A DNA stretch of 64,000 bases, from assembly GCF_000802305.1 (NCBI RefSeq), contig NZ_JTDK01000022.1:1-64000 (forward strand). The letters are read 5' to 3'. The translations under genes and the position numbers were made by a program. The stretch comes from Microbacterium mangrovi (GTDB lineage: Bacteria; Actinomycetota; Actinomycetes; Actinomycetales; Microbacteriaceae). This document shows, piece after piece, positions 13,902-16,078 of this stretch (within the stretch, counting starts at the first letter, position 1; each line of letters begins with the position of its first letter). The notes under the pieces are model-generated. The model had not been told where the DNA came from, made no database searches, and was given only the letters and a program-made list of their open reading frames with translations.

Positions 13902-14253
13902 TTGTCTGCTCACTCTCTTTCTCGCGTCATACGTCTCTGCCCCGATTCGGCAGCTGCGCATTGGACGCACGGTGGCGGAGGCGCTGCTGCGCTCCCGCCA
14001 GGGCACTCGCACCCGCTGTCGCGGGTGATGCTGCACCACTGTTCTGATGTCAAACCGCTGTCTCGGCACGCCGAGGCATCCGGCATCCTGCCCCCTGACA
14101 CACGAATGCGCCTGCTTTCGCAGGAAGGGAGTCGGGATCAGTTGTTCTGCTGCCCGCGGCCCAGGTTCTCGCGCTCGGTGGCGCCGCCCTGTGCACTGCC
14201 CTGGCAGTGATCTGCCGCACGCGCAAGCGCACGGCAGAATGTGGAACCTGACT
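13902..14253 (-). promoter_or_regulatory. Long leader of the S10 operon
   Basis: No gene is supported in this stretch. On the transcribed strand it holds three hairpins: a long one with TCTGCCG/CGGCAGA arms at 14211-14238, right after the predicted start of transcription; CCTGC/GCAGG with a 4-nt loop at 14110-14123; and CACCCGC/GCGGGTG with a 4-nt loop at 14010-14027. The leader could carry autoregulation by a ribosomal protein, but no known motif was recognised. Confidence 0.5.
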
Positions 14254-14282
14254 AGTCTACGTGTCGCCCGGGCGTGTCGCAA
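14254..14282 (-). promoter_or_regulatory. Promoter of the S10 operon
   Basis: Minus strand: TTGCGA (14282-14277), a 17-nt spacer and TAGACT (14259-14254) form a good sigma-70-type promoter pointing at rpsJ. The predicted start of transcription is near 14247. Confidence 0.65.
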
Positions 14283-14337
14283 ACTCGGGCGTGTCGCGCA
14301 CGGCGTGTTTTCAGCTGCGCGGCGTCATCCCCGTCCG

Positions 14338-14439
14338 CTCGTCACGATACGCGCCTCACGGCGCCCTTCGTGACGATCGAATGCGGCCGTCCGGGCTCGC
14401 TCGTCACGTTGCGCGACATGCGGCGCACCTCGTGGCGAG
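14338..14439 (+). repeat. Two 40-nt palindromes downstream of the DUF559 gene
   Basis: Copies at 14338-14377 and 14400-14439, 62 nt apart. Each begins CTCGTCAC and ends in a near-complement (GTGACGAT, GTGGCGAG), with 24 nt between the arms. They belong to the same family, in the same orientation and with the same spacing, as the array at 15575-16078 on the other side of the gene. Confidence 0.8.
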
Positions 14440-14455
14440 TCTGGATGCCGGCGCG

Positions 14456-15424
14456 TCATCGAATCGCGCGGTTCAGCGCGGCGCGGACGAGCGCGGCCGG
14501 ACGCGGGCCGATGCCGAAGACGTTCCGCGCGGTGAGGCGCACGACCGCCCATCCGGCGCGTTCGTAGGCCCGGTACTTCTCGATGTCGCGTTCCCACTGC
14601 CGCGGGTCGGTCCGATGCTGGTCGCCCTCGTACTCGACGGCGATGCGGAGTCCGGGGTACGCCAGGTCCGAGATCCCGAGAAGACGGCCACTCCCGTGTC
14701 GCACCTCGACGTCCAGGGCCGGCTCGGGCAGGCCGGCCTCGACGAGGTCGAGACGCACGAGGGTCTCGGCGCGCGACGAAGCCCCGACCCGGATCAGCGG
14801 CAGCGCTTCGCGGAGCCTCCCGATCCCCGTGCGACGCCCTGCCTCGATCGCGGCGGCGAGCTGTTCCACTGTTCCGAGGGCGGATGCCGGATCCCCGGGC
14901 TCTCCCCCGGCGAGTCGCGGCACCCGGACGATGCCGTCCCCGGCGGCGACGAGATCGTGCACGCCCAGCACGGCGCCGAGCTGGGCCCACGTGCTGGCGG
15001 GACTGCTGACGGCCACCCCGTCCAGGTCCCGGATTGCCACGAGGTGGTGCGCGTACGCGTGCCCCTCGACACCGCCGCCACGCGGTGCCCGATGAGGCAG
15101 CAGCACGCCGACCTGGACCGGCGCATCGACGCGGTGCGGCACCGGGATGCCCCACAGCGCCGCGGCCGACATGAGCACCAGGAACGACCCGGGGACCATG
15201 CGCGGCACATACGCGAGTGCCCGACGCCGGGCCGCCGCATCCCTGACCTCCCAGGGAGCGGCATCCTCCTCTGGAGCCCGTCCCGGATATCGGCGCACCC
15301 CCCAGAACGGGGCCTCGAGGTCAGCGGCTCGCAGCCGCGACTTCGCGACGCCCGCAGCGAGCGCGTCCCGGACGCGGAACACGCTCCCGAGGCCGGCGGC
15401 GATGGGTTCTCTCTGTGGCGACAT
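14456..15424 (-). CDS. DUF559 (Vsr-like nuclease fold) protein
   Basis: A 322-aa protein with an N-terminal segment resembling AbiEi-type winged helices (VFRVRDALAAGVAKSRLRAADL) and a C-terminal DUF559 domain from about residue 215. That domain shows D253 in ISDLAYP and the E264-Y-E266-G-D-Q-H270 strand, a PD-(D/E)XK-like arrangement shared with Vsr repair endonucleases. Nuclease activity is not proven for most members. The start at 15424 is the best family fit, but its GAAGG is too close to be convincing. Ten palindromes flank the gene, two on its 3' side and eight upstream. Similar proteins are common and variable in Microbacteriaceae. Confidence 0.75.
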   Translation of the reverse strand: MSPQREPIAAGLGSVFRVRDALAAGVAKSRLRAADLEAPFWGVRRYPGRAPEEDAAPWEVRDAAARRRALAYVPRMVPGSFLVLMSAAALWGIPVPHRVDAPVQVGVLLPHRAPRGGGVEGHAYAHHLVAIRDLDGVAVSSPASTWAQLGAVLGVHDLVAAGDGIVRVPRLAGGEPGDPASALGTVEQLAAAIEAGRRTGIGRLREALPLIRVGASSRAETLVRLDLVEAGLPEPALDVEVRHGSGRLLGISDLAYPGLRIAVEYEGDQHRTDPRQWERDIEKYRAYERAGWAVVRLTARNVFGIGPRPAALVRAALNRAIR

Positions 15425-15574
15425 CCTTCGATGCTCATGACGCCCGGCGCCGGCTGCCGACCGCATCGGGTGGACTGTGGACAACTCGCCCGCCACCCGC
15501 GCCTGTGGACAGACGACTCCCGCGAAATGTCGCGGCGGTCGCACCCGTTGCGCCCCGAGCGGCATCCTCGTCGC

Positions 15575-16078
15575 CTCGTCACGAACCGCGGCGAGCGCAA
15601 CGCTTCGCGACGAGCGAACCAGGCGCGACGCTGCTCACTCGTCGCGAAAGGCAGGCAGCCGCCCACGACGCGACGAGCGAACCAGGACGCCGCGGCGGGG
15701 CATCCCGCACGGCGCTCACTCGTCACAAGATGCAGGCAGCCGCCGCAACGGGGCGAGGGAAGCGATTCTCACTCGTCACGAAATGCAGTCAGCGACGCAC
15801 ATCCGGACGCGCGAAGCGGGCCGGAGCTGCCCACCCGTCACGAAACGCACACAGACGCGCACAACCCGACGAGCGAAGCGGGACACCGCGGCCCGGCATC
15901 CCGCACCGTGCTCACTCGTCACGAAGCGCACGCAGACGCGCACAATGTGACAAGCGAACCAGGCCGGAGCTGCCCACTCGTCACGAAACGCAGCGACCAG
16001 CGCACACTGTGACGAGCGAACCAGGCCGGAGCTGCCCACCCGTCACGAAACGCAGCGACCAGCGCACAACGCGACGAG
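15575..16078 (+). repeat. Array of eight 40-nt palindromic repeats
   Basis: Units start at 15575, 15638, 15719, 15772, 15834, 15915, 15977 and 16039. Seven are exactly 40 nt and one is 39. The consensus arms are CTCGTCAC and GTGACGAG around a 24-nt loop rich in GAAACGCA and CGCACAA. Spacers are mostly 22 nt (CGAACCAGGCCGGAGCTGCC type) or 41 nt, giving periods of 62 or 81. Units 3 and 4 are degenerate at the right arm. Because the unit length avoids stops, several frames stay open here, but none looks like a protein. The rest of 15425-16108 holds nothing else recognisable. Confidence 0.85.

Follow-up and report, generated by a model that had tools for sequence, protein, structure and literature searches.

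Ten short palindromes surround a gene for a nuclease-like protein in Microbacterium mangrovi, and the locus raises the question of whether the palindromes and the protein belong together. The locus lies in a stretch of 64,000 nucleotides (contig NZ_JTDK01000022.1, positions 1 to 64,000; hereafter the window), which is part of contig C15 in a host genome of 4.42 Mb in 55 contigs, labelled G000 in all comparisons. The answer proposed here, which we consider fairly probable, is a two-part element resembling the repetitive extragenic palindromes (REPs). It would consist of the nuclease gene and its own palindrome family, whose copies are the predicted binding sites of the protein, and it would spread itself.

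A first reading of the window from its letters (the original prediction) had placed ten palindromes at 14338-16078, eight upstream and two downstream of the gene. All ten were found at that place. With the gene on the minus strand, the copies at 15575-16078 are upstream and those at 14338-14439 downstream. The features, with lengths in nucleotides (nt), are as follows.

14338..14377, forward strand: palindrome copy 1, 40 nt, downstream of the gene (57.0 bits with model R1)
14400..14439, forward strand: palindrome copy 2, 40 nt, downstream of the gene (48.2 bits with model R1)
14456..15424, minus strand: gene for a 322-residue AbiEi-like/Vsr-like (DUF559, MTES_1575-type) nuclease, stop codon included (open reading frame, profile and fold matches)
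15575..15614, forward strand: palindrome copy 3, 40 nt, upstream of the gene
15638..15677, forward strand: palindrome copy 4, 40 nt, upstream of the gene
15719..15757, forward strand: palindrome copy 5, 39 nt, right arm degenerate, upstream of the gene (28.1 bits)
15772..15811, forward strand: palindrome copy 6, 40 nt, right arm degenerate, upstream of the gene
15834..15873, forward strand: palindrome copy 7, 40 nt, upstream of the gene
15915..15954, forward strand: palindrome copy 8, 40 nt, upstream of the gene
15977..16016, forward strand: palindrome copy 9, 40 nt, outer arms perfect, upstream of the gene
16039..16078, forward strand: palindrome copy 10, 40 nt, upstream of the gene

The ten copies all ran the same way round and nine were exactly 40 nt long, in line with the single orientation and near-constant length first described; the copy at 15719 was 39 nt. 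The right arms of the copies at 15719, 15772 and 15834 were degenerate. The periods of 62 or 81 nt given originally were nearly right: start to start within groups, 62 occurred four times and 81 twice, and 63 and 53 were also present. A 48-column weight matrix scored nine window sites at 33-66 bits, compared with a best score of 6.8 in 50 Markov resamples of the window; the matrix had been trained on the window and other genomic copies, which makes the comparison partly circular, and being ungapped it misses the 39-nt copy. A looser scan with a 14-base core and up to three mismatches was much less clear-cut than the weight matrix, with 14 window matches against a mean of 7.3 and a maximum of 13 in 100 shuffles.

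The ten window palindromes belong to a family dispersed through the M. mangrovi genome, and most copies are far from the nuclease gene. When an exact pattern was searched with its gap left free at 10-30, it gave 15 genome matches (13 sites), and the gap was identical in all. A covariance model gave at least 150 matches on both strands. The weight matrix found 101 distinct sites, counting only copies of exactly 40 nt, in 26 clusters in the window and 22 stretches fetched around matches. The length was held constant as originally claimed: 50 of 55 core pairs in the own-genome stretches were 40 nt, with 8-59 bases allowed between exact 7-base cores. Among predicted gene gaps of at least 60 nt, 16 of the 26 with an element were convergent, compared with 13 of the 115 without (Fisher 3e-7), and 3 of the 26 were divergent; genes outside the window were predicted by a simple codon-usage caller, not a standard gene finder. 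A predicted stop codon was often no more than about 50 nt from the start of a cluster. The resemblance to REPs suggested for the window was borne out at genome scale, the palindromes being dispersed, extragenic and of constant length. By eye, GGATGCC / GGCATCC also recurred between genes (window 14070-14090) and in the inter-palindrome spacers of loci L054, L064 and L073.

Plain tandem duplication would make the palindromes a lineage-expanded minisatellite that lies beside the gene by accident. A spacing of 62 nt was the commonest, exact in 25 neighbouring pairs (window and 22 stretches), and sequence variants were common to adjacent copies, both of which fit such an origin. Against it, the 26 clusters lay at unrelated places and the same arrangement occurred around homologues in other genera. 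The minisatellite explanation is already contradicted by the dispersal and is hardly credible.

Neighbours shared by the clusters, other than the nuclease, were also considered. For 43 clusters from five genomes, BLAST of the flanking genes gave mainly distant matches, and one cluster locus looked orthologous (G017 and G052, two adjacent genes at 82-85%); this comparison leaves out single elements that lay within predicted genes or had two or more core mismatches, and G051 was thereby lost. The array L060 was examined across 20 genomes including that of M. mangrovi. Homologues of the neighbouring permease were present in 11 of them (one outside the genus) at 55-59% identity, and no array of this type was found within 700 bases of the permease 3' end in any of the 11. 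The second flanking gene was located elsewhere, and L060 was rejected as a clean empty site; the mobility of the palindromes is something we infer. An exact-core survey of 398 family genomes gave a match in 114, compared with 19 for the reversed control. These matches were nearly all single, varied in length and had inner letters unlike the element; only G000 was rich (63 per strand).

Adjacency to the nuclease family was investigated in two main samples. A strong intergenic palindrome (span 40-66, at least 17 pairs) lay within 500 base pairs (bp) of 28 of 40 homologues from 40 genomes, compared with 55 of 384 control genes from the same 20-kb stretches (Fisher 2e-13). The density of intergenic palindromes was fourfold higher near homologues (2.04 per kb) than far from them (0.52 per kb). 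In 80 named loci from Microbacterium, Curtobacterium, Leucobacter, Homoserinibacter, Occultella and others, a palindrome of at least 16 pairs was present within 500 bp in 61, upstream in 40 and downstream in 39. Counted by 500-bp intervals, 79 of 155 near ones and 24 of 452 distal ones contained a palindrome (Fisher 3e-34), the distal intervals holding more coding DNA and the near ones also containing ordinary terminators and coding palindromes. With looser limits (16 pairs, span 38, 600 bp), 18 of 19 loci had a palindrome. The samples overlap: several contigs are common to the 40- and 80-locus sets, and five of the 19 loci are among the 80. The R2 subtype, defined by a multi-species model, adjoined the nuclease gene at 19 of the 48 loci scanned with that model, a set chosen for the most part from carrier genomes. 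Genome G017 had 46 matches to model R1 on both strands, and the one homologue found there at E<=1e-20 (L265) had three copies upstream and four downstream.

The palindrome sequence went with the protein. In 15 of 19 two-sided named loci, the palindromes upstream and downstream of the gene had a half-site in common (12 or more of 14 bases), compared with 5.3% between genes (permutation p 0.0005). Protein similarity was correlated with half-site similarity (Mantel r 0.276, p 0.001) across 94 non-redundant genes; the 16 omitted from the 110 palindrome-bearing genes were redundant (at least 97% identity) or had a broken reading frame. The half-site was common to 96% of 26 pairs at 70% protein identity or more, to 57% of 91 pairs at 60-70% and to 3% of 2586 pairs below 45%. 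The DNA just outside the palindromes was similar in only 7% of the pairs at 60-70%. Paralogues in the same genome had unrelated palindromes in four of five comparable pairs; the pairs of G463, G568 and G736 fall outside this count, one member of each lacking a palindrome at the limits applied. L306 and L307, close homologues from different genomes (85% identity), shared their palindromes. The original prediction had named the Vsr/DUF559-like protein as a possible partner, and this gained support: palindromes lay beside its homologues far oftener than beside control genes, and palindrome type followed the protein.

The co-occurrence of DUF559 genes and palindromes by genome, which had been proposed as a check, was uninformative because at least 325 of the 366 genomes of the genus carried the nuclease family at E<=1e-20, many of them with more than one copy. 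Adjacency and the matching of types are the informative tests. Model R2 had matches in at least 70 of the 366 genomes at E<=1e-5. Both counts are lower bounds, with 16 candidates per genome scored for R2 and six for the nuclease. Among the matches listed, a nuclease homologue was present in 66 of the 70 R2 carriers, hence in 259 of the 296 non-carriers. Genomes G547, G564, G636 and G713 are candidates for orphaned palindrome families or more divergent partners.

Two further families were dispersed as well. The TCAGGTGGC type was found in 9 of 366 genomes (15 copies in G593, 10 in G534, 6 in G480, 4 in G732, 3 each in G468 and G668, and 1 each in G464, G465 and G507), and its reversed control had no match in the 366. 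Its length was 57 nt, with one of 58, among the matches listed, 43-68 being allowed. In G593 and G534 it flanked a homologue on both sides, and in G668 and G480 it was seen on one side of a homologue; none of the singletons (G464, G465 and G507) adjoined a listed homologue. For the GAGCAGAA type of the Curtobacterium loci, 23 of 398 family genomes had a match, compared with 6 for the reversed control, and several copies per genome were found only in genus g32, which is probably Curtobacterium. It was present in five of the nine g32 genomes drawn (20 copies in G270, 13 in G409, 10 in G434, 4 in G089 and 1 in G163), and all copies in g32 were 47 nt among the matches listed. In G434 it lay on both sides of a nuclease homologue, 141 and 873 bp from its ends. 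As a separate observation, a different palindrome, GTCACGAGACCG (GTCACGAGACC...GGTCTCGTGAC, 32-36 nt), recurred in G176 and G107 of genus g50 in the same family. No nuclease homologue was found in the four stretches fetched (L295-L298), which are as follows.

G176, C1, 506000-511500: GTCACGAGACCG palindrome stretch (first of L295-L297)
G176, C1, 1779000-1786000: GTCACGAGACCG palindrome stretch (second of L295-L297)
G176, C1, 2022000-2030000: GTCACGAGACCG palindrome stretch (third of L295-L297)
G107, C1, 71500-77000: GTCACGAGACCG palindrome stretch L298

The geometry of the palindromes was investigated through their half-sites. An expectation-maximisation motif from the half-sites of 181 gene-flanking palindromes had a core of about GtCaCnAnnnGCCGC, and eight seeds gave the same core with the register shifted. 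In 144 palindromes the core was present in both halves (score at least 2), and the core-to-core distance was 48-50 bp in 112 (97 at 49) and 38-39 bp in 21, the two classes making up 133 of the 144; the motif was fitted to the same palindromes that were measured, and the fit itself leaves the distance free. The spacing classes are one B-DNA turn apart. The window's own element had a core distance of 38 by its letters. Measuring the spacing from a TG[CTG]CG anchor gave mixed values (27, 37, 47 and others) since the anchor recurs, and it was replaced by this motif. Of 70 far control palindromes, 11 fitted the half-site motif, five at distance 49; these are possibly dispersed copies.

The length was also constant elsewhere. 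In four other species, 16 of 16 core pairs were 41 nt with 8-59 bases allowed between cores, and in other genus genomes R2 matches spanned 48 or 59 model positions besides 49. At L303, L305, L346, L349, L356, L358, L360 and L361, R2-type palindromes beside nuclease homologues were 59 nt, not 49, one helical turn longer with the core unchanged. The original prediction had proposed testing the hairpin for binding or cleavage by the protein. A constant length and spacing classes that differ by 10 bp favour recognition of duplex DNA instead, since recognition of a hairpin would not need such spacing. It is very likely that the protein binds these palindromes as duplex.

The pairing between arms was also conserved. 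Between species, 83.7% of arm pairs were able to form, compared with 78.4% when shuffled, and compensatory arm changes gave 55 two-sided cells, compared with 29 when shuffled. Pairing was destroyed when the partner arm was slid. Internal positions 15-17 with 33-35 were mostly unpaired, and the next two pairs inward did pair. Conserved pairing with compensatory changes, and the preference for convergent gaps, would be expected of bidirectional terminators or mRNA-stabilising hairpins at convergent gene ends, amplified locally and having no link with the nuclease. A fixed length with classes one helical turn apart is unexpected of a terminator, and no T-run followed the copies examined by eye. 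In addition, intervals holding a palindrome were about tenfold commoner next to the nuclease gene than at a distance (fourfold per kb of intergenic DNA), and the palindrome sequence was gene-specific. Terminators or stabilising hairpins are an improbable explanation.

The three-dimensional structure of the window protein was modelled with AlphaFold2, and the model was confident (pLDDT 94.8). The coding part is 14459-15424 and the stop codon 14456-14458, on the minus strand. Two regions were assigned.

14789..15418, minus strand: residues 3-212, AbiEi-antitoxin-like region with N-terminal winged helix, approximate (fold match)
14459..14776, minus strand: residues 217-322, Vsr/EDxHD-type nuclease domain (fold match and conserved residues)

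Residues 3-212 matched AbiEi (6y8q; Z 9.4, 176 residues, root-mean-square deviation (rmsd) 6.3) and Rv2827c (1zel; Z 6.9, 192 residues, rmsd 5.3). Residues 217-322 matched I-Bth0305I (3r3p; Z 12.2, 97 residues, rmsd 2.9), a homing endonuclease that we take to be an EDxHD member, and Vsr (1cw0; Z 10.3, 100 residues, rmsd 2.6). Foldseek alone gave weak E-values, the best being 0.002 (1zel). By sequence, the window protein matched PF18741 REase_MTES_1575 (E 1e-5, score 25.9, under the cut-off of 38.2) and DUF559 (E 0.038, score 14.3, under the cut-off of 20.6). PF18741 was matched at E<=0.01 by 42 of 45 aligned family members, and AbiEi_4 by 1 of the 45 (E 0.0098). Residues E220, E264, E266, H270 and D280 were invariant in all 45. 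The model suggested that the 322-residue protein is an AbiEi-antitoxin-like region fused to a Vsr/EDxHD nuclease domain. PADLOC gave no defence-system match for the three proteins tested.

By eye, the neighbours of the window gene appear to be ribosomal protein S10 and an ABC permease; the nuclease unit adjoins rpsJ, the head of the S10 ribosomal-protein operon (window 13902-14460). S10 was not found in 142 other loci searched, nearly all around nuclease homologues. The nuclease unit is therefore probably at different places in different genomes.

The two parts proposed here would be the gene for an AbiEi-antitoxin-like DNA-binding region joined to a Vsr/EDxHD nuclease domain, and a palindrome family serving as the binding sites of that protein. 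Two protein molecules would sit on each palindrome as B-form duplex, one on each inverted half-site, with the half-sites set in helical phase at a core-to-core distance of 38-39 or 48-50 bp. The conserved nuclease may cut at or near the palindromes. Repair of the break would then copy palindromes into new extragenic sites and expand arrays, in a homing-like manner. Copies would persist mainly between convergent genes, where they may be least harmful. The spreading of the palindromes by the nuclease is a less secure step than the binding.

The strongest rival is binding alone, in which an AbiEi-like repressor uses the palindromes as operators or as genome-organising sites. The upstream copies would autoregulate the gene, the dispersed ones would have roles in regulation, chromosome structure or transcription insulation, and other means such as recombination or replication slippage would spread the repeats. 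The published AbiEi operator has two 23-bp repeats 3 bp apart (49 bp in total), and that of Rv2827c has 23-bp repeats 13 bp apart (59 bp in total), as described in PMC7319586. Cores 39 and 49 bp apart correspond to overall lengths of 49 and 59 bp, so both lengths of the inverted repeats through which AbiEi and Rv2827c autoregulate (PMC7319586) were found here, an agreement that concerns the lengths. Palindromes lay upstream of the gene in 40 of the 80 named loci, in line with this rival. They lay downstream equally often (39 of 80), and the occupied gaps were mostly convergent (16 of 26, compared with 13 of 115 empty ones) and divergent in 3 of 26, which suits promoter control badly. Against binding alone, too, the nuclease residues were invariant in 45 of 45 proteins. 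Repressors do not usually have tens of sites of one fixed length at non-orthologous places. Binding alone is rather unlikely as the full account. A self-spreading REP-like system accounts best for the dispersal, the flanking of the gene by copies on either side, the location in convergent gaps and the conserved nuclease.

Several results weigh against the self-spreading system, besides the composition of the compared intervals, the fitting of the half-site motif to the measured palindromes and the restriction of the operator agreement to lengths. The upstream copies are explicable by operator use alone. Nineteen of the 80 named loci had no palindrome, and no homologue was found at E<=1e-20 among six candidates per genome in 4 of the 70 R2 carriers (G547, G564, G636 and G713). 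In G468, the one homologue fetched (of three) was without a TCAGGTGGC-type palindrome. The paralogue pair in G735 was scored as related (score 12). Of the pairs at 70% protein identity or more, 46% also had similar DNA beside the palindromes, and shared descent therefore accounts for part of the co-variation. Two of five compensation measures were at shuffle level (pairs with two-sided change, 9 compared with 8.2; further pair types, 23 compared with 21.4).

Movement in trans by a RAYT/Y1 (HUH) transposase, as for known REPs, was also considered. The size range, extragenic dispersal, arrays and imperfect palindromes are as in REPs (PMC3733652). The absence of a RAYT, noted originally, extended to the genomes: PF01797 was found in 0 of 21 genomes, eight of them carriers, and in 5 of 14 control genomes, and a RAYT/Y1 transposase was rejected as the mover. 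The GTAG tag was lacking at the palindrome ends; neither GTAG nor GT[AG]G was found in copies from six genomes, whose ends were mostly CTCA/CTCG/CTCC...CGAA or TGAG. Actinobacteridae are stated in PMC6006769 to carry only TnpA subclass 1.1. The RAYT explanation is highly improbable.

The results suggested that the palindromes and the nuclease are an unrecognised kind of small mobile repeat with a dedicated enzyme. Aimed searches of the open-access literature, which leaves out subscription papers and most preprints, gave no report that ties DUF559, Vsr or AbiEi proteins to dispersed palindromes. A bolder reading, held tentatively and at somewhat less than even chance, is a new class of mobile repeat, in which AbiEi-type palindromic operators became self-spreading by gain of a Vsr/EDxHD nuclease, an actinobacterial, independently evolved counterpart of REP/RAYT. 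On this reading, diversifying paralogues would each keep a private palindrome family, and several independent systems could exist in one genome. In several genera a non-homologous enzyme, a toxin-antitoxin-type binder fused to a homing-type nuclease, goes together with palindromes of its own. Should this pairing prove functional, REP-like systems would have at least two origins, and a large family of unassigned DUF559/AbiEi proteins would gain a role. The many naturally diversified pairs of protein and site would then make a recognition code readable.

REP palindromes are widespread among bacteria. In REP/RAYT systems, short palindromes are dispersed outside genes, the gene is flanked by its own repeats, the repeat type follows the gene and gene ends are preferred (PMC3733652, PMC6006769). 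The dedicated REP enzymes described there are Y1 transposases (PMC3733652, PMC6006769). The present system is like REP/RAYT (TnpA_REP, an IS200/IS605-related Y1 family) in its dispersed extragenic palindromes and in a cognate gene flanked by copies. It differs in its enzyme, an AbiEi-like/Vsr-like nuclease instead of an HUH tyrosine transposase, and in the fixed length and 10-bp classes, which indicate duplex recognition. It would work like REP/RAYT with unrelated parts. The type IV toxin-antitoxin proteins AbiEi and Rv2827c share the fold of residues 3-212 and inverted repeats of 49 or 59 bp in total, whereas here the region is fused to a nuclease domain, the sites are genome-wide and, by eye, the neighbours of the window gene did not look like a toxin gene such as AbiEii (DUF1814). 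I-Bth0305I and Vsr were the best fold matches of residues 217-322; the present system differs from them in its dispersed palindromes, no intron or intein was seen, and no methyltransferase gene was noticed beside the window gene. The name EDxHD is from PMC6083498. VsrA of Caulobacter is likewise a DUF559/Vsr-type nuclease, but it is tied to a solitary cytosine methyltransferase and DNA damage, and the passages on it mention no palindrome family (PMC12907096). The CGTC-tagged REPs are also REP-like palindromes without a RAYT partner, reported to lack a dedicated transposase; they differ in occurring mainly in alphaproteobacteria and in an unpaired CGTC tag at one end (PMC3733652). If the reading as a new class is true, DUF559 nucleases would be candidate missing partners for further REPs that are orphans, the CGTC type among them.

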